A stretch of 64,000 bases of DNA from Dehalococcoidia bacterium. Its GTDB lineage: Bacteria; Chloroflexota; Dehalococcoidia; Tepidiformales; Tepidiformaceae. Below, in pieces: positions 52,133-60,812 of this stretch. The notes beneath the pieces are model-generated. The model searched no databases. It had not been told where the DNA came from and saw nothing but the letters and a program-made list of their open reading frames with translations. Each line of letters opens with the position of its first letter. Position 1 is the stretch's first letter. The stretch is from positions 1 to 64,000 of the forward strand of contig JAGQHB010000004.1 of NCBI GenBank assembly GCA_020432045.1, given 5' to 3'. Position numbers and translations under genes: made by a program.

Positions 52133-54595
52133 TCAGGCCGCGTTCGGCCAGCGTTGGCGCCGGAGGCCCGAAAGAAATTCCACCGGTAGCACCGGGGCGC
52201 TGAATAAATATCCCTGGCCCTCGTCCACACCCGCGTGCACGAGCAGCTTGAGCTGAGCCTCGTTCTCGATTCCTTCGGCCACCACACCGAGGCCCAGCGC
52301 CCGGCCCATCGCGACGATTGCACTCACGAGCGCGAGCGAACGCGCGTCGTGTTCGATCTCGCGGACGAACTCTCGCGGGACCTTCAGGACATCGACCGGC
52401 AGGTCCTTCAGGTATGAGAGGGACGAGTAGCCCGTGCCGAAATCATCGATGTACACCTTGAGCCCTGCTGTCCGGAGGTCGGCCAATGCCTGGAACACGC
52501 CGGGGTCCTGGACCAGCAGACGTTCGGTAATCTCGATCCCAAGTGTGTGCGGCGCGACCTTCGCTGCCGCCGCGTGCAACGTCGCGAGTACGCGCGGGCT
52601 GGTCAGGTCACCAGGACTGAGATTGAGGGACATGGTAATGCCCGCGCCTGGTACGCCGGCCAGGCATGCCATCGCACCGTCGATGATGTGCTGCGCGAGC
52701 GCCCCCGCCAGCCCGTGTTCCTCTGCGACCCGGACGAACTCGTCTGGTGCGACGCGGCCAAGTTGGGCTGACTCCCAGCGCGAGAGTGCCTCGCCGCCGA
52801 CAATCTTCCGGTCACGCAGCGTCACGACCGGCTGTATGACGGTATCCAGTTCCCCGGCGCCCAGAGCTCCCCGGAGCGCATCGGTCATGGCGTACTTCCG
52901 GGCAACCGCGTCGTGCATCGCCTGGCTGAAGCTTTGCGCACGACCTTTCCCCAGTCGCTTTGCCTCGTAGAGCGCGGTGTCGGCGTTTCGCAGCAGCATC
53001 GAGGAGGTTGACACTCCGTCGGCGAGGGCGACACCAATGCTGACGCCCAGGGTAAACGGTCCTTCCGGGGTTTCCAGCGGTGGGGCAAAGGCACGGAGGA
53101 TTTCATCAGTCAGGCTCTGCCATCCATCGGCTGGCACATCGCCGAAGACGGCGAACTCGTCGCCGCCGAGTCGAGCCACCATGGCGCCGGGAGCGGCCGC
53201 CTTCAGGCGGGCTGCCGCTTCCACGAGTACAGCGTCTCCCATCGCATGCCCGAATGTGTCGTTGATGCCTTTGAAGTCGTCCATGTCAATCAGGAGGAAG
53301 ACGCGATTCGAGTCACCGGGGTTGGCACAGAACGCGTCGACCTCCCCGAGCAACCGCCTCCTGTTCGGCAGGCCGGTCAATACATCCTCAAAAGCGAGGC
53401 GGGTGAGGCGGGTGTGAGAAGCGACGCCATTGCAGATCGTCTGGACGAGGGCCGTGTCCGCGTCGTTGAACGTGCGGAATGCACCGCCGTGGCTGGCGAC
53501 GACCAGTGCCCCGAGCGCTTCGGTACCCGAGGAAAGCGGCGCAACCAGCGCCTCGGCGAGATCTGCATCGTCAAGCTCCTGAACGATTCGGGCCCAGAGC
53601 AGATCAGCCTGCGGGTCACGTGGCACCTCCGGCTGAGGAGCATGCACACGGGCGGCGCGCCCCGTAGCGGATGAGACCTCGAGGATGCCCTGGACGGAAT
53701 CAGCGGAAATGACGCTTCGGTGGTTCCCATGAGGGTCCACCCGGAGGTCGACAATGCCGCCCAGGCCCATCGGCACCAGGAGACGCACGTAGTCACACGG
53801 CAGGGAGTCCAGGCATCGCTTCAGGGCTGCAAACAGTCCATCGTCCGACTGTTCGGCCTCCCGGAGCTCTCGTGACGTTTCATAGACCAATTCGAGGCTC
53901 TCACGCCGCTGACGCTCCGATTCGTATGCCCGGTTACCCATAAACACGGCTCCGAGGGGCACACAGACGAGAGGCAGAGCCATGGGAGCCACGTCCCAGA
54001 TGATTGCCGTCGACACGCCCATGCTGGCCCCGCCGACTGACGTGAGAAGGCCGAAGACGACAGAAGTACGGAGGTCGCGGAATGCGAGCCGCCGCTCCGC
54101 GATCGCGATGACACCGAAAACAAGCAATGAGCCAATGATCGAGGCACACATCGCACCGCTCACGGCAGCAACCCAGGTCAGAGGATCGAGGACTCCACCG
54201 CCGTGGGGCAGCGCCCGGTAGACGACAGCCGCGATCGTCGCCGTGAGGCCAAATGTGGCCGTATTGAATAGCAACTTCATTGGCGGCTGGCGGCGATGGG
54301 CGACGAGCACGAAGCCGCTGCCGAGCGTGTACGCAACGACCAGCATCAGGGGTGGTGCGAGCATCAGCCCAAACGTGAGCGGAAGCTCCAGCAGCGAAAA
54401 GGAGTGTGCGCTCTTGCGGACGTGCACGTGCACGACAAGTAACTCCGCAATGGGGGAGGCAGCGAGGAGCATCAGCCCGATGCCGATTTCCTGGCGGCTG
54501 AACGGGCCGTAGTCGTGAACGAGCAGCGGATAGGCGCCGATAGCCACAACCGCCACCACAACCACGTACAACCAAAGGGCCCTCGCCGTGCTCAA
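52133..54595 (-). CDS. Membrane GGDEF-EAL protein (c-di-GMP turnover)
   Basis: 820 residues. Residues 1-225 hold about seven membrane helices of a MASE-like sensor. A coiled linker (ESERQRRESLELVYETSRELREAEQ) and a GAF-like domain (about 240-395) follow. The GGDEF domain (about 400-565) has an intact LGGDEF near residue 475, but the position of the RxxD inhibitory site reads APGA, so product inhibition is unlikely. The EAL domain (about 575-810) keeps GGEALSRW, NLSP, ITERLL, DDFGTGYSSL, the catalytic lysine in LKVP, AEGIE and GQGY, so it should be an active phosphodiesterase. Net activity cannot be told. It is divergent from the peptide/protease locus. Confidence 0.93.
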   Translation of the reverse strand: MSTARALWLYVVVVAVVAIGAYPLLVHDYGPFSRQEIGIGLMLLAASPIAELLVVHVHVRKSAHSFSLLELPLTFGLMLAPPLMLVVAYTLGSGFVLVAHRRQPPMKLLFNTATFGLTATIAAVVYRALPHGGGVLDPLTWVAAVSGAMCASIIGSLLVFGVIAIAERRLAFRDLRTSVVFGLLTSVGGASMGVSTAIIWDVAPMALPLVCVPLGAVFMGNRAYESERQRRESLELVYETSRELREAEQSDDGLFAALKRCLDSLPCDYVRLLVPMGLGGIVDLRVDPHGNHRSVISADSVQGILEVSSATGRAARVHAPQPEVPRDPQADLLWARIVQELDDADLAEALVAPLSSGTEALGALVVASHGGAFRTFNDADTALVQTICNGVASHTRLTRLAFEDVLTGLPNRRRLLGEVDAFCANPGDSNRVFLLIDMDDFKGINDTFGHAMGDAVLVEAAARLKAAAPGAMVARLGGDEFAVFGDVPADGWQSLTDEILRAFAPPLETPEGPFTLGVSIGVALADGVSTSSMLLRNADTALYEAKRLGKGRAQSFSQAMHDAVARKYAMTDALRGALGAGELDTVIQPVVTLRDRKIVGGEALSRWESAQLGRVAPDEFVRVAEEHGLAGALAQHIIDGAMACLAGVPGAGITMSLNLSPGDLTSPRVLATLHAAAAKVAPHTLGIEITERLLVQDPGVFQALADLRTAGLKVYIDDFGTGYSSLSYLKDLPVDVLKVPREFVREIEHDARSLALVSAIVAMGRALGLGVVAEGIENEAQLKLLVHAGVDEGQGYLFSAPVLPVEFLSGLRRQRWPNAA

Positions 54596-54784: not shown

Positions 54785-54941
54785 AGTACGGTAACCAGCC
54801 GGGTAAACGTAAAGGCGTACTGGCGGTGGCGTGTACCCCGGACTGTCACGTTCTCGCTTCCTCTGCCTCGGGCCGAGTGGCTCATTCTGCGGTGGGCGCT
54901 CCTCACGAGCGCGAGAAACCAAGGCAAGAAGGAACCTCATC
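54785..54941 (+). promoter_or_regulatory. Conserved leader upstream of peptide A (paired with 58465-58617)
   Basis: Aligning back from the start codon, this region matches the leader of peptide B without net gaps. GTGTACCCC/GCGTATCCC lies 111 nt before the ATG, TGTCAC ends 93 nt before it, TCGCTTCC ends 81 nt before it, and AAGAAGGAAC lies at the ribosome-binding site. The hairpin GCGCTC-GAGCGC (54896-54912) ends 29 nt before the ATG and matches GCACTC-GAGTGC in the other copy, a compensatory change. It is probably a structured 5' UTR. No known riboswitch was recognised. Confidence 0.65.
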
Positions 54942-55082
54942 ATGAAGAAGCTTTCACTCCTCGTCGTCGCCGCTGCCATCCTCATAGGTGCGGGGCTTTT
55001 CGCCCAGGGCGCGCAATCAGCAGATGCCGCGGGCCCGCTGCCGCCGCCGCTGTATCAGCCAAACGGCAGCACCTGGTCCTAG
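54942..55082 (+). CDS. Short secreted peptide A ending in GSTWS
   Basis: 46 residues. MKK followed by a hydrophobic stretch (LSLLVVAAAILIGAGLFAQG) and AQSADA gives a clear Sec signal peptide with probable cleavage near ADA-AG, leaving a mature peptide of about 17-18 residues, GPLPPPLYQPNGSTWS-like. The last five residues, GSTWS, equal one unit of the tail repeat of protease A, which begins 40 bp downstream. AAGGA stands 8 nt before the ATG. It is short enough to be missed by gene callers. The homologous peptide B at 58618 supports it as real. Confidence 0.75.
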   Translation: MKKLSLLVVAAAILIGAGLFAQGAQSADAAGPLPPPLYQPNGSTWS

Positions 55083-55122
55083 CCACCGCTGCGTACAGGG
55101 GCAGGTGAAGGAGGGGAAGCAG

Positions 55123-56673
55123 ATGGGATCATCCATCCGCAAACACAGGGACGGGGGCTTGCCGCGATTCGCGCCGATGCTGGCGGTCTTCGCCGTCGTC
55201 GCGGTCGCGCTACTCAGCGGCGGCTCCGCGCTCGCGACAACGTACAACCCGGCCACCGACATGAACTCGATGTACAACACGGCGAAGTACACCGGCGCCG
55301 AAGCCTGGTGTAATGCCGGCTACACGGGCGCCGGCATCGATGTCGCCGTGATCGACACGGGCGTTTCGCCGGTACAGGGCCTGGCGACGCCGGGCAAGAT
55401 CATCTACGGCCCGGACCTGTCACTCGAATCACAGGCGCCGAACCTCCGTAACCTCGACACCAATGGCCACGGCACGTTCATGGCCGGCCTTATCGCAGGC
55501 AAAGACTCGAACCTGACCGTGCCCTACGCGAACGCGCCCGCCACGGCGTACCGCGGTATCGCGCCCGACGCCCGTATCGTCAGCATCAAAGTCGGCGTCG
55601 CCGACGGTGGCGTCGACGTCTCCCAGGTGATCGCCGGGATCTACTGGGTCATCGAACACAAGAACGACAACGGCCTCAACATCCGTGTCCTCAATTTGTC
55701 GTATGGCACCAACTCTGCGCAGTCCTACCTGGTGGACCCGCTCGCCTACGCGGTGGAACAAGCATGGGAAGCTGGCATCGTCGTCGTCGCTGCTGCCGGG
55801 AACACCGGCTATCAGCGTGGCTCCGATGCTCCCGGCCTTGCCAGCCCGGCCGCCGACCCGTTCGTGATCGGCGTCGGCGGCTCCGACTCTATGGGTACTG
55901 CCAGCATCAGCGACGACCGGGTGGGCGACTACTCGGCCAGCTCGGCGGCCTGCGGCTCGCAGTGCAAGAACCCGGACTTCCTTGCTCCGGGCTCGCACAT
56001 CCAGGGCCTCCGCGTGCCGAACTCATTCGTTGATACCAACCATCCGCAGGGACGAATCGACGGCCGTTACTTCCGCGGCAGCGGTACATCTCAGTCGGCG
56101 GCCATTGTCTCGGGCGCAGTGGCACTCGTCCTCCAGAAGCATCCAACCGCAACGCCTGACCAGGTAAAGCGGATGTTCCGCGACCAGGCAAAGAAGCTCG
56201 GCGGATTTGACACGCAGGCGCAGGGTGCAGGCGAGATCGTCCTCTCCAAGATGCTTCCAAAGGCGCCCTCCAAGTTCACCCAAAACTTCGTTCCCTCGAC
56301 CGGGACCGGCTCGCTGGAACTTTCCCGCGGCCATGACCGCATCTCCCGCGATGGCGTTGCGCTCACGGGCGAAAAGGACATCTTCGGGCGGACGTTCAAC
56401 TCGGCGCAGGTCGCCGCCATGGCCGCTTCCGGCAGTACATGGTCCGGTGGCATCTGGAACGGCAGCCCATGGTCCGGTTCCACATGGTCCGGCTCGACCT
56501 GGTCAGGCAGCACCTGGTCGGGGTCTACATGGTCCGGCTCGACCTGGTCGGGCAGCACCTGGTCCGGGTCCACCTGGTCCGGTTCGACGTGGTCGGGCAG
56601 CACCTGGTCCGGGAGTTCCTGGTCCGGAAGTAGCTGGTCCGGCGACAGCTGGGCGACCGGGAGCTGGAACTAA
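55123..56673 (+). CDS. Subtilisin-like (S8) protease A with Trp-pentapeptide tail
   Basis: 516 residues from ATG 55123 (GGAGGGG 6 nt upstream). A signal sequence at about 15-38 (PMLAVFAVVAVALLSGGSALA) is followed almost directly by the catalytic domain: D78 (AVIDTGV), H116 (NGHGTF), oxyanion N227 (AAAGNTG) and S323 (GSGTSQSAA), all intact. No I9-type propeptide is visible. A 45-residue module (SLELSRGHDRI...KDIFGRTFNSAQ) shared with proteases B and C precedes the tail. The tail, residues 437-516, has 16 tryptophans at exact five-residue intervals, mostly GSTWS. A secreted endopeptidase is expected; the tail function is unknown. Confidence 0.93.
   Translation: MGSSIRKHRDGGLPRFAPMLAVFAVVAVALLSGGSALATTYNPATDMNSMYNTAKYTGAEAWCNAGYTGAGIDVAVIDTGVSPVQGLATPGKIIYGPDLSLESQAPNLRNLDTNGHGTFMAGLIAGKDSNLTVPYANAPATAYRGIAPDARIVSIKVGVADGGVDVSQVIAGIYWVIEHKNDNGLNIRVLNLSYGTNSAQSYLVDPLAYAVEQAWEAGIVVVAAAGNTGYQRGSDAPGLASPAADPFVIGVGGSDSMGTASISDDRVGDYSASSAACGSQCKNPDFLAPGSHIQGLRVPNSFVDTNHPQGRIDGRYFRGSGTSQSAAIVSGAVALVLQKHPTATPDQVKRMFRDQAKKLGGFDTQAQGAGEIVLSKMLPKAPSKFTQNFVPSTGTGSLELSRGHDRISRDGVALTGEKDIFGRTFNSAQVAAMAASGSTWSGGIWNGSPWSGSTWSGSTWSGSTWSGSTWSGSTWSGSTWSGSTWSGSTWSGSTWSGSSWSGSSWSGDSWATGSWN
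56431..56670 (+). repeat. 15-bp coding repeat array, protease A tail (GSTWS units)
   Basis: Sixteen consecutive 15-bp units each encoding one Trp (W440 to W515). Ten units encode GSTW; the others are GGIW, GSPW, GSSW twice, GDSW and TGSW. Serine and threonine codons vary freely between units (TCC, AGC, TCG, TCT; ACA, ACC, ACG), so the array is conserved as protein, not as DNA. Confidence 0.95.
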
Positions 56674-58319
56674 TGAGCAGCCACCGACCTCCTACACCTG
56701 ACCGGCACCCGGGTGGACGCCTCCCTGGCGACTATCAAGGCCTGAACCGGTGGAAGAAGACCCTGCTCCTGGCAGCCAGCGGCGCACTCGCGCTGATGGT
56801 TGCCGGGCAGCCCACCCTCACCTCTGTCGCACAGGCGGCACCGCAGAGCGTCAAGGCCACCGGTGGCACGGCCGTCGTCGCGCCGCCCCCGGCTCCAGTA
56901 CTCGACGCCGGCTCGATGGTACTCGTCACCGACAGCACCGGCGCCCGCGCCTACTGGAAGGCCGGCTATACCGGAAAGGGCGTCGACATCGCCATCGTCG
57001 ACTCGGGCGTCGCCCCGGTCGAAGGCCTTTCGACGCCCGGCAAGGTCATCCTCGGCCCCGACCTCTCGTTCGAATCGCAGGACCCGGCGAACCGGTACCT
57101 CGATACGAATGGCCATGGCACCCACCTGGCCGGCATCCTCGCCGGTCGCGACGCGGCGGCCAGCGGCAACTACGCCGATGATGTGACCAGCTTCCTGGGC
57201 ATGGCGCCAGATGCCCGGCTCGTCTCCGTGAAAGTGGCGGACGCCCAGGGCCACACCGATGTCACCCAGGTGATCGCAGCGATCAACTGGGTTGCCCAGC
57301 ACAAGAACGACAATGGCATGAACATCCGCGTCCTGCTGCTCGCCTTCGGTACCGATTCGGTATCGCCCTGGGAGCATGACCCGCTTGTGTTCGCCGCTGA
57401 ACAGGCGTGGAAGCAAGGCATCTTCGTTGTTGTCTCTGCGGGCAACGACGGGCCGGCCGCCTTCAAGCAAAGCACGCTCACGAACCTGGCTTCGAGCCCC
57501 AACCTCTTTGTGATCGGTGCGTCGGACACGCAGGGCACCGCAACACTGCTCGACGATGCCGTCGCACCGTTCTCGTCGGGCGCCAGGGGCGAACGCGCCG
57601 TGGACGTGGTCGCCCCTGGCAGCCATATCATCGGCCTGAAAGCACCTGGCTCCTACGTTGACCAGAAGTTCTCATCGACTGGCGCGTACGGCGACCGTTT
57701 CTTCCGCGGGAGCGGTACCTCCCAGGCAGCGGCCGTGGCGGCCGGTGCTGCAGCGTTGGTCATCCAGGAACAACCGGGTGTCACGCCCGACGCGCTGCGT
57801 GCGCTGCTGATGCGTACTTCCACTCCGCTGGCCGGTACTTCGTGGTCTGCCCAGGGCGAAGGCGCGCTTACGCTCGCCAACGTACTTGGCAGGAAGGCCG
57901 GCAAGACCAAGTCGAGCAACTACTGGTCCGACGGACTCGGAACACTCGACTCAGCCCGCGGGTCCAACCGGCTCGCCTTTGACGGCCAGGTCCTATCCGG
58001 CCAGATCGACATCTTCCGGGCCCCATTCGATAGCGCAGCGATGGCGAAGGCGGAAGCGAATGCCTTCAGCTGGTCTGGCGGCGCATGGAACGGGAATGAG
58101 TGGGCCGCATCAAGCTGGTCTGCGAGTTCCTGGTCGGCAAGCAGCTGGAGTGCGTCTAGCTGGTCAGCAAGTTCCTGGTCAGCCAGTAGCTGGAGCGCGT
58201 CCAGCTGGTCGGCGAGTTCGTGGTCGGCCAGTAGCTGGAGCGCGTCCAGCTGGTCAGCCAGTTCGTGGTCGGCCAGCAGCTGGAGCGCCAGCTCCTGGTC
58301 CTCCGCCGCCTGGGAGTAG
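56673..58319 (+). CDS. Subtilisin-like (S8) protease B with Trp-pentapeptide tail
   Basis: 548 residues; its ATG shares one base with the stop of protease A (TAATG), so translation is coupled. The N-terminal signal is at about 28-56 (KKTLLLAASGALALMVAG...AQAA). The catalytic domain starts near DAGSMVLVTDSTGA with D110, H148, N258 and S350 in standard contexts. As in protease A there is no obvious I9 propeptide. The shared pre-repeat module is TLDSARGSNRL...IDIFRAPFDSAA. The tail (from W467) has 17 tryptophans every fifth residue, mostly SASSW, ending SAAWE. Terminated by a strong hairpin. Confidence 0.93.
   Translation: MSSHRPPTPDRHPGGRLPGDYQGLNRWKKTLLLAASGALALMVAGQPTLTSVAQAAPQSVKATGGTAVVAPPPAPVLDAGSMVLVTDSTGARAYWKAGYTGKGVDIAIVDSGVAPVEGLSTPGKVILGPDLSFESQDPANRYLDTNGHGTHLAGILAGRDAAASGNYADDVTSFLGMAPDARLVSVKVADAQGHTDVTQVIAAINWVAQHKNDNGMNIRVLLLAFGTDSVSPWEHDPLVFAAEQAWKQGIFVVVSAGNDGPAAFKQSTLTNLASSPNLFVIGASDTQGTATLLDDAVAPFSSGARGERAVDVVAPGSHIIGLKAPGSYVDQKFSSTGAYGDRFFRGSGTSQAAAVAAGAAALVIQEQPGVTPDALRALLMRTSTPLAGTSWSAQGEGALTLANVLGRKAGKTKSSNYWSDGLGTLDSARGSNRLAFDGQVLSGQIDIFRAPFDSAAMAKAEANAFSWSGGAWNGNEWAASSWSASSWSASSWSASSWSASSWSASSWSASSWSASSWSASSWSASSWSASSWSASSWSASSWSSAAWE
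58065..58319 (+). repeat. 15-bp coding repeat array, protease B tail (SASSW units)
   Basis: Seventeen Trp at five-residue spacing (W467 to W547), 13 of them in ASSW units. The segment 58105-58319 matches 60534-60748 of protease C with 5 mismatches in 215 bp by eye and no gaps. Confidence 0.95.
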
Positions 58320-58356
58320 GCCAGCGAATCACGACTATCGATCTACGACCTACTTA

Positions 58357-58386
58357 GGAGGGCGGCCCGAAATCGGGCCGCCCTCC
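58357..58386 (+). terminator. Strong intrinsic terminator after protease B
   Basis: A 13-bp perfect stem GGAGGGCGGCCCG / CGGGCCGCCCTCC with loop AAAT, 37 bp after the stop, followed by TTGGCGTTT. It separates the first unit (peptide A, proteases A and B) from the second. Confidence 0.85.
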
Positions 58387-58464
58387 TTGGCGTTTCAGCG
58401 CAGACCCTGCCCGAGCGGTCGCAGGAGCGCGCCTCACGCCGCGCTCCTGGAACCGACGCCGGCA

Positions 58465-58617
58465 CAGTAAAGAGTGGGTGAGTAAAGCAGGCGGATCACC
58501 GGTGACGCGTATCCCTGAATGTCACTGGTTCGCTTCCGCGGTGGATGGCTGGCACTCGCATTCTGTGATGACGCACTCACTCGAGTGCGAGCATCAAAGG
58601 TAAGAAGGAACACCATC
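58465..58617 (+). promoter_or_regulatory. Conserved leader upstream of peptide B (paired with 54785-54941)
   Basis: Second copy of the leader described for peptide A. GCGTATCCC begins 111 nt before the ATG, TGTCAC and TTCGCTTCC lie at identical distances, and the hairpin CGCACTC-ACTC-GAGTGCG (58572-58589) ends 28-29 nt before the ATG. Upstream, CACAGTAAAG and GAGTAAAG-like segments also align to CAGTACGG and CGTAAAGG in the first copy. Confidence 0.65.
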
Positions 58618-58782
58618 ATGAAAAGGCTCTCACTCTTCGTTTTCACCGCGGCCGTCGCCATCTCCGGTGGTATTGCAACCCAGGGTCTCGACGCGGCAAG
58701 CGCCGGTGGTCCGCCACCCGTCGTCAAGTTCTTCAAGCTCCTCGAACCGATATTCAACCTGCTCGGGAGCACCTGGTCGTAG
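58618..58782 (+). CDS. Short secreted peptide B ending in GSTWS
   Basis: 54 residues. MKRLSLFVFTAAVAISGGIATQG is a Sec signal core; cleavage is likely after ASA or nearby (GLDAASAG), leaving roughly 25 residues with a Pro-rich start (GGPPPVV), a hydrophobic amphipathic middle (KFFKLLEPIFNLL) and the C-terminal GSTWS shared exactly with peptide A. AAGAAGGAAC precedes the ATG at the same distance as in peptide A. Protease C follows 94 bp downstream; a small hairpin (ATCCC/GGGAT around a TTCG loop) right after the stop might attenuate read-through. Confidence 0.75.
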   Translation: MKRLSLFVFTAAVAISGGIATQGLDAASAGGPPPVVKFFKLLEPIFNLLGSTWS

Positions 58783-58876
58783 AAATCCCCTTCGCGGGAT
58801 GACGTGGGCCCTCGAAGGTCCGCAGCTCGCCCTCGGGCTGCGTCTCCGGCGACCGTATGAAGACAGCAGGAAACAC

Positions 58877-60748
58877 ATGACCCCATCCAATGAACCATCA
58901 CCATCAATGAAACGGATGTCTCTGACGGCAAGGCTCGGCGTCCTCGCCACCGGCGTGCTCGCGGTTGCGGCGGGCATGATTGCCACCCACCCGGCGACCG
59001 TTGACACGTTCCCATCGAACGGCGGCGAACTCCAGGCTGTCATCATCCAGACAGACGGCGACAGTGCCGCGCTGGTCCGCGCCATTGACGCAAACGGCGG
59101 CCGCATCGAACGGGAACTCCCGATCATCAACGGCATGCAAGCCTACGTGCCGTCCGGTGATATCGCGACGCTCCGGGCTTACCCCGGTGTGCTTGCGGTC
59201 ACACCAGACCTGAGCCTGGAAAGCCTCGGCAAGAAGGATAAGGGCGGCTCAGGCACTTCGACGGCACCCGCCACTTTCGATGCCGGTTCGATGGCCCTCA
59301 TCACCCAGAGCACCGGTGCCCGCGACTACTGGAACTCGGGCTACACGGGCAAAGGCGTCGATGTCGCCATCATCGACACGGGCATCGCTCCGGTGAACGG
59401 CCTGTCGGCACCAGGGAAGGTCGTACTCGGCCCCGACCTTTCCTTTGAATCACAGAGCAAGAAGACCCGGTACCTCGATACCAACGGGCACGGTACGCAC
59501 CTGTCGGGGATCATCGCTGGCCGTGATGACTCTGTGAGCGGCAAGTACCAGAACAACACCACCGATTTCATCGGCATGGCACCCGATTCCAGGCTGGTCT
59601 CCGTCAAGGTTGGCGACAGCTATGGGCATGCCGATGTAAGCCAGGTCATCGCGGCAATCGACTGGGTTGTCCAGCATAAGAACGACAACGGTTTGAACGT
59701 TCGCGTCCTGAATATCGCGTTCGGAACGAACTCCAAGATGGCGTGGTGGCACGATCCGCTGGTACAGGCCGCCGAAGTGGCGTGGCGCAACGGCATCTTC
59801 GTCGTGGTCTCCGCCGGAAACGACGGCGAGGGCCCGAAGTTCACCGGTGCGCTGAGCAACCTCGCCAAGAGCCCCAACCTGATGACCGTGGGTGCAACCG
59901 ATACGGTCGGCACCCTCAGGCAGAGCGACGACTGTATCCCGTCCTTCTCGTCCAGCGGTGACTTCCTCCGTCGCGTGGATGTGGTCGCGCCTGGCAAGTC
60001 TGTCATCAGCTTGAAGGCTCCAGGTTCCTTCGCGGACGAAAGCTTCGGGGCGACCGCGACCTACAACGACCGCTTCTTCCGCGGGAGCGGAACATCCCAG
60101 GCGGCGGCCGTGGTCTCCGGTGCAGCAGCGCTGGTCATCCAGCAGCACCCGGATATCTCGCCCACCGACCTCAAGAACCTCCTACGCGGGACTGCCACGC
60201 AGCTGGACAACGAGAAGCCGGAAGCCCAGGGCGCCGGACAGATCAACCTCGCCTCGGCCCGCACGGCCACGGTCAGCAAGACTATTGACATCTATATCGG
60301 CGGGCTCGATCCGCTGCGGACTTTCTACGAGACGGGAATCAGCGGCAAGGTCTGGTCAGATGGCCGTGGCTCCATCGACGAAGCCCGCGGCACCCACCGC
60401 CTCGTCCACAAGGGCGTTGAACTGCGGGGCGACATCGACATCTTCGCCGCCCCGTACGACAGCACGGCCACGGCAGTCGCCCGCGAACAGGCTTCCAGCT
60501 GGTCCTCCGGCTGGTGGAACGGAAACAAGTGGACCGCATCAAGCTGGTCTGCGAGTTCCTGGTCAGCAAGCAGCTGGAGTGCGTCTAGCTGGTCAGCAAG
60601 TTCCTGGTCAGCCAGTAGCTGGAGCGCGAGCAGTTGGTCGGCGAGTTCGTGGTCGGCCAGTAGCTGGAGCGCATCCAGCTGGTCAGCCAGTTCGTGGTCG
60701 GCCAGCAGCTGGAGCGCCAGCTCCTGGTCCTCCGCCGCCTGGGAGTAG
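58877..60748 (+). CDS. Subtilisin-like (S8) protease C with I9-type propeptide and Trp-pentapeptide tail
   Basis: 623 residues from ATG 58877 (AGGAA 5 nt upstream). The signal segment is at about 15-36. Unlike A and B it has a propeptide at about 50-115 (LQAVIIQTDGDSAALVRAID...INGMQAYVPSGDIATLRAYPGVLAVTPD) of the inhibitor I9 type. The catalytic residues are D167, H205, N315 and S407. The shared module SIDEARGTHRL...IDIFAAPYDSTA precedes a tail with 17 Trp every fifth residue (W542 to W622), ending SAAWE as in B. By eye the catalytic domain is closest to that of protease B (about two thirds identical). Confidence 0.94.
   Translation: MTPSNEPSPSMKRMSLTARLGVLATGVLAVAAGMIATHPATVDTFPSNGGELQAVIIQTDGDSAALVRAIDANGGRIERELPIINGMQAYVPSGDIATLRAYPGVLAVTPDLSLESLGKKDKGGSGTSTAPATFDAGSMALITQSTGARDYWNSGYTGKGVDVAIIDTGIAPVNGLSAPGKVVLGPDLSFESQSKKTRYLDTNGHGTHLSGIIAGRDDSVSGKYQNNTTDFIGMAPDSRLVSVKVGDSYGHADVSQVIAAIDWVVQHKNDNGLNVRVLNIAFGTNSKMAWWHDPLVQAAEVAWRNGIFVVVSAGNDGEGPKFTGALSNLAKSPNLMTVGATDTVGTLRQSDDCIPSFSSSGDFLRRVDVVAPGKSVISLKAPGSFADESFGATATYNDRFFRGSGTSQAAAVVSGAAALVIQQHPDISPTDLKNLLRGTATQLDNEKPEAQGAGQINLASARTATVSKTIDIYIGGLDPLRTFYETGISGKVWSDGRGSIDEARGTHRLVHKGVELRGDIDIFAAPYDSTATAVAREQASSWSSGWWNGNKWTASSWSASSWSASSWSASSWSASSWSASSWSASSWSASSWSASSWSASSWSASSWSASSWSASSWSSAAWE
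60494..60745 (+). repeat. 15-bp coding repeat array, protease C tail (SASSW units)
   Basis: Seventeen Trp at five-residue spacing, 13 in ASSW units. It is colinear with the protease B array and nearly identical in DNA from 60534 onward, including silent positions. Confidence 0.95.
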
Positions 60749-60776
60749 CTCTCAGACGGGGCCAACCAACTTCGGC

Positions 60777-60812
60777 GAAACATGGCAGCCCGGAAACGGA
60801 CTGCCATGTTTC
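60777..60812 (+). terminator. Intrinsic terminator after protease C
   Basis: A 12-bp perfect stem GAAACATGGCAG / CTGCCATGTTTC with a 12-nt loop, followed by ATTT, 28 bp after the stop. Confidence 0.8.

Follow-up and report, generated by a model that had tools for sequence, protein, structure and literature searches.

The genes described here lie in a stretch of 64,000 nucleotides from a Dehalococcoidia bacterium (assembly GCA_020432045.1, contig JAGQHB010000004.1, positions 1–64,000, forward strand; the window, below). They appear, from their sequences, to form one signaling module with an extracellular input, in which secreted subtilases with long tryptophan-repeat tails would be the outer partners of a membrane sensor enzyme and small secreted peptides would act as copies of the tail end; we put the probability of this whole chain at about 0.5. 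The pairing of the protease and sensor genes is well supported, and the mechanism is inferred.

Layout of the cluster

52133–54595, minus strand: sensor-GAF-GGDEF-EAL enzyme, 820 aa, divergent from the peptide and protease genes
54826–54861, plus strand: 36-bp element, copy 1, inverted repeat of the GTGAC-N14-GTCAC type plus TCGCTTCC
54942–55082, plus strand: micropeptide 1, 46 aa, predicted signal peptide, C terminus NGSTWS
55123–56673, plus strand: S8-1, predicted secreted subtilase, 516 aa, 16-Trp tail
56440–56670, plus strand: W-x4 tail of S8-1, mainly WSGST, 16 Trp
56673–58319, plus strand: S8-2, predicted secreted subtilase, 548 aa, translationally coupled to S8-1 by a TAATG overlap
58071–58316, plus strand: W-x4 tail of S8-2, WSASS, 17 Trp
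58356–58387, plus strand: strong hairpin, 14 bp, likely terminator of unit 1, −35.9 kcal/mol including flanks
58502–58537, plus strand: 36-bp element, copy 2
58618–58782, plus strand: micropeptide 2, 54 aa, predicted signal peptide, C terminus LLGSTWS
58877–60748, plus strand: S8-3, predicted secreted subtilase, 623 aa, with an additional propeptide-like N-terminal region
60500–60745, plus strand: W-x4 tail of S8-3, WSASS, 17 Trp in register
60777–60812, plus strand: hairpin, likely terminator of unit 2, −26.2 kcal/mol

The peptide and protease genes fall into two units, micropeptide 1 with S8-1 and S8-2 and micropeptide 2 with S8-3, each closed by one of the hairpins. A first-pass annotation had described two GSTWS micropeptides, three S8 proteases in which the triad is intact, and arrays holding 16, 17, and 17 Trp residues, and its coordinates and counts are accurate; its division into two terminated units, each opening with a peptide gene, is borne out by the two hairpins. 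Both hairpins lack a T-run and for that reason were not listed by a simple terminator scan. No known riboswitch leader was found, Rfam giving only chance-level matches over the locus. The membrane sensor enzyme lies outside the region covered by that annotation, yet it is part of the cluster and is the commonest neighbor of W-tail proteases.

Subtilases with tryptophan tails

S8-1, S8-2, and S8-3 match Pfam Peptidase_S8 (PF00082) with 135–148 bits, against a cut-off of 21.8, and alignment places the Asp/His/Ser triad (IDTG/VDSG, GHGT, GTSQ) in all three; profile and triad together make them S8 subtilases. Foldseek also leads to subtilisins, with only ordinary subtilases among the matches listed and Bacillus subtilisins as the closest solved structures. 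The nearest NCBIfam model is TIGR03921, the mycosin of type VII secretion systems (T7SS), but that identity is ruled out by scores of 109–138 bits, far under the equivalog cut-off of 278.75. A PADLOC scan for anti-phage defense systems, run on the S8 proteins, micropeptide 1, and the sensor enzyme, gave a generic subtilase model at 90–103 bits and weak IetS matches, with none for micropeptide 1 or the sensor enzyme. In catalytic fold and triad the proteases are like the S8 subtilases of MEROPS, from which they differ in their long Trp-repeat tail, a conserved linker (GSLExARG...DIFG), and the neighboring sensor enzyme. The N-terminal extension of S8-3 (58877–59270; LQAVIIQTDGD...AVTPDLSLE) is propeptide-like, has no match in Pfam, and is absent from S8-1 and S8-2; it might serve all three proteases.

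The Trp residues of the tails are in exact five-residue register, and the arrays are not a product of chance, since all 41 forward W-x4 hits in the whole genome fall inside the three tails. The final 221 bp of S8-2 (58099–58319) and S8-3 (60528–60748) are 97% identical in DNA, compared with 68% for the catalytic and linker parts, which suggests that the tails were recently exchanged or underwent gene conversion. The strict period of five residues (six in Acidobacteriota, Bacillota, and others) is like that of β-solenoid repeat proteins, and the tail might be a solenoid or polymer with the peptide as its cap or seed; the first-pass annotation had offered a surface or polymer-binding solenoid of this kind as one option. 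An AlphaFold2 run with 12 homologues produced a poor model. Raising the number of homologues to 40 gave confident catalytic and linker parts (323 residues at 90 or above), and the first tail units, to about residue 452, were docked onto the protease body; residues 453–516 were below 50 with no secondary structure. It should be noted that the pLDDT of the tail, about 25–30 across both runs and about 30 even with 40 homologues, comes from a method that is weak on low-complexity sequence, so that the lack of structure may be a failure of the model. The models nevertheless speak more for a flexible, multivalent chain than for a solenoid, no Pfam repeat matches the tails, and assembly of tail and peptide is, in our estimate, very improbable. 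The pentapeptide-repeat proteins (PF00805) share the five-residue period, but the tails carry Trp rather than A(D/N)LXX, lack the Pfam match, and are modeled as unstructured where those proteins form a β-helix; membership of that family was rejected.

Relatives of S8-2 were found in 31 of 400 Chloroflexota genomes searched, and nearly all of those fetched have Trp at every fifth residue in a unit that varies by lineage (WSGSS, WDNVT, WDSVG, WEGIS, WSTSS). In a named GTDB collection, W-tail S8 proteins occur in Actinomycetota (Blastococcus, Dactylosporangium, Paractinoplanes, Geodermatophilus, Acidimicrobiia, and Thermoleophilia), and six-residue units such as WGSNAL, WADNAL, and WSDTIL in Acidobacteriota, Bacillota, and an Abditibacteriales genome. 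The 116 distinct W-tail S8 genes collected, at loci sampled through similarity to the protease of the window, have period 5 in 98 cases and period 6 in 18. Two further features of these proteins may be recorded. The Trp-repeat S8 proteins of loci L218, L222–L224, L226, L231, L233, and L234 (Acidobacteriota and others) often have a short conserved Gly-Glu/Asp end (NGEN, GENx) after the repeats. Directly N-terminal of the signal anchor, 9 of 97 W-tail S8 proteins (L039, L040, L041, L042, L043, L044, L045, L057, and L181) carry a Trp motif, GWS[IL] or [GI]-[IVL]-S-W-[DE], that is expected about once by shuffling and is like the GISWE unit of micropeptides.

The membrane sensor as probable partner of the protease

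The sensor enzyme has a hydrophobic, MASE9-like N terminus with ∼6–8 transmembrane-like segments, a weak GAF match, and both a GGDEF (109.6 bits) and an EAL domain (203.6 bits), with the RLGGDEF, EAL, and DDFGTG motifs intact. It shares with MASE-type sensors of c-di-GMP enzymes (MASE9, PF20972) a multi-transmembrane N-terminal sensor on GGDEF or HD-GYP proteins, but the GGDEF-EAL branch to which it belongs is under the Pfam cut-off of 24.3 bits (13.5 bits for the sensor of the window), whereas the HD-GYP-type neighbors of other W-tail proteases are above it (29–40 bits).

A profile of the sensor domain, trained on the neighbors of W-tail S8 genes, was run in identical form on these genes and on control positions. 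Among the 77 W-tail S8 genes flanked by 2.5 kb or more on both sides, 61 adjoin the domain, compared with 6 of 191 positions 5.5–7 kb distant on the same contigs (Fisher p ∼5e-38, indicative only because the control positions are mutually non-independent). These positions were used because an intended control of “tail-less” S8 homologues failed, those of Acidobacteriota and Bacillota having six-residue Trp repeats and HD-GYP neighbors themselves. A c-di-GMP enzyme adjoins 55 of the 77 genes and 13 of the 191 controls; the genome of the window has only 13 GGDEF matches. The outputs attached to the sensor comprise 47 GGDEF-EAL proteins, 37 HD-GYP proteins, and others, among them plain histidine kinases (L168, L175, L210, L203, and L208) and GGDEF-histidine kinases (L072 and L077). 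Alignments of the sensor built separately from GGDEF-EAL and HD-GYP proteins match over ∼214 columns (hhalign probability 99.2, E 1e-19). The protease and the sensor are a constant pair while the output varies, and the protease is therefore read as the outer partner of the sensor; that their pairing is functional is very likely. Cultured organisms that carry the pair include Blastococcus aggregatus DSM 4725, Dactylosporangium, and Geodermatophilus. Beside S8 genes of Acidobacteriota, open reading frames of ∼250–270 codons (L237 2846–3625, L238 8404–9153, and L239 2101–2904) seem to encode a sensor domain to which no output domain is attached.

The main rival of this explanation is that the Trp tail serves to anchor the protease on a polymer of the envelope or matrix, with the peptide as a soluble competitor or filler for this polymer and the neighboring enzyme regulating only expression or the biofilm state without touching the protease. 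Aromatic repeats are frequent in glycan-binding parts of proteins, the matrix is often under the control of c-di-GMP, and an unstructured, multivalent tail as modeled by AlphaFold2 would suit such an anchor, but the retention of the same sensor domain when the output becomes a histidine kinase fits a sensor partner better than a c-di-GMP matrix program, and we consider anchoring rather unlikely.

Micropeptides that resemble the tail unit

Both micropeptide genes of the window have a ribosome-binding-site-like stretch, AAGAAGGAA, and a predicted Sec-type signal sequence; their products are 50% identical. A third copy, on another contig of the genome (G000:C77:3438–3629; with its upstream element, L122 3328–3629), ends in LLGSTWS and is an orphan between metabolic genes with no protease neighbor. 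The leaders of all three copies share the 36-bp element (GTGAC...GTCAC inverted repeat), and the pattern derived from them has no further site in the 3.48-Mb genome when as many as 3 mismatches are allowed. A peptide profile run on 38 genomes of the order found relatives in G018 (end LGSTWS, E 5e-10) and G015 (end GGTWS, E 0.003, inspected by eye). Four members of the order carry W-tail S8 genes (G000, G001, G015, and G018), that of G015 being cut by the contig end before the tail, which was assigned from close similarity of the catalytic part and from the sensor neighbor. Peptide genes occur in 3 of the 4 genomes that have W-tail S8 and in 0 of the 34 that lack it (Fisher p = 5e-4). The idea that GSTWS serves generally as a C-terminal sorting tag was discarded: G-S-[ST]-W-S ends only the three micropeptides in the genome and one antisense-type open reading frame, which recurs in genomes without W-tails.

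A second, distant lineage elsewhere in the phylum encodes, downstream of an S8-HD-GYP operon, a peptide that bears the lineage's own unit (L078: ADTGGISWETAPDPIDPWGISWE). Of the 29 genomes in that order, 17 match the profile of this peptide, with one to three tandem genes (pairs in G437, G443, G285, G442, and G444 and a triple in G112); some contigs end before the protease, and the S8-HD-GYP-peptide order was read where the operon is complete. Values of dN of 0.12–0.35 where dS is 0.64–1.05 indicate that these peptides are under purifying selection. The peptide is absent from the paralogous second-family W-tail operons examined (e.g. L063, L070, L071, and L097–L099) and marks, for that reason, one operon type.

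By the evidence of both lineages, the micropeptides can be taken as real and as belonging to the W-tail system. That they are non-functional fragments of duplicated tails or chance open reading frames was already disfavored: they are short and missing at most W-tail loci, but dN well under dS, conservation over the full length, tandem copies, a fixed position, and the common upstream element make this scarcely credible. The profile of the window's own peptide type gave, in 400 Chloroflexota genomes, only this genome and two weak partial matches within long frames; no convincing micropeptide was found at Actinomycetota W-tail loci; and since no peptide gene is detectable at the majority of W-tail loci, the peptide is not a core part of the system. 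The peptide genes of G018 and G015, like the third copy, adjoin no W-tail protease. The first-pass proposal that peptides and tails form one system is upheld by their enrichment in the order of the window and by their co-occurrence in the second lineage; adjacency of peptide and protease as a general rule is not supported, nor is the solenoid with its cap, and the membrane sensor had been missed.

The peptide end follows the tail unit of its own lineage. In the order of the window, the peptides end in G-[SG]-T-W-S, with Ser after Trp in 5/5 peptides and in 80% of the tail units; those of the second lineage end in G-[IV]-[ST]-W-E (GISWE/GVTWE), with Glu after Trp in nearly all ends, and the tail units there have Glu (82%) or Asp (18%) after Trp and Val/Ile two residues before it. 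The match is inexact in the window, where micropeptide 2 (GSTWS) precedes S8-3 with its SASSW tail and only S8-1 has an exact GSTWS unit.

The peptide could instead be a substrate, signal, or inhibitor at the protease active site, where it would be cleaved or where its Trp-Ser or Trp-Glu end would sit. Short propeptides frequently act as subtilase inhibitors, the N-terminal extension of S8-3 is missing from S8-1 and S8-2, and in the window the peptide shares a transcription unit with the protease. The conserved portion of the peptide is nevertheless its tail-like end and not a protease-like prosequence, the second-lineage peptide comes after the HD-GYP gene and not after the protease, and orphan peptide genes occur, all of which renders an active-site role improbable. 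That the peptide acts at the binding site of the tail seems the probable reading.

A candidate surface-to-interior signaling system

In the mechanism that we propose, the secreted subtilase, with its long and probably unstructured chain of Trp units, would be the outer partner of the MASE9-like multi-transmembrane sensor, the cytoplasmic part of which would here both make and break c-di-GMP through its GGDEF and EAL domains. As multivalent binding elements, or “stickers,” the Trp units may keep the protease at the sensor or at some component of the envelope that the sensor monitors, and each micropeptide would be secreted as a single-unit copy of the tail end, GSTWS in the window and GISWE/GVTWE in the second lineage. 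By occupying the site of the tail unit as a diffusible ligand or competitor, the peptide would alter the output of the sensor, and with it c-di-GMP, or release the protease.

Gram-positive peptide-pheromone systems of the Agr and RRNPP type, in which the gene of a small secreted peptide lies next to those of a protease and a receptor-type signaling protein, may work in a similar way. The present cluster differs from them in that the peptide end copies the repeat unit of the protease tail, in that a MASE-type sensor is joined to an output through c-di-GMP or a histidine kinase, and in that no cyclization or import genes were seen.

The individual parts are of known kinds, and the recurrent module with tail-copy peptides is in no description found; the searches for a published account of the tail, the sensor, or a protease/c-di-GMP link covered subscription journals thinly, so that an earlier description is possible. 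In the accessible literature no secreted protease linked to a MASE-type sensor was found, and a review places MASE1 among sensory domains without a discernible purpose (PMC8846402). For multi-transmembrane MASE-type sensors, the protease that adjoins them across phyla and outputs and the peptides that copy its repeat unit are concrete candidate ligands that can be synthesized, among them the mature peptides AGPLPPPLYQPNGSTWS and DTGGISWETAPDPIDPWGISWE. We suggest only tentatively, as the less probable outcome, a new class of bacterial peptide signaling in which MASE9-like sensors would recognize a Trp pentapeptide unit, the Trp-repeat subtilase would be a multivalent, proteolytically active ligand and the micropeptides diffusible single-unit ligands, and an extracellular protease would, in several phyla, be connected to an output by c-di-GMP or by a two-component system. 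The module offers a hypothesis of function for a large set of proteases now annotated merely as S8 peptidases, and the related clusters in several phyla point to an undescribed system of signaling from the cell surface to the interior.
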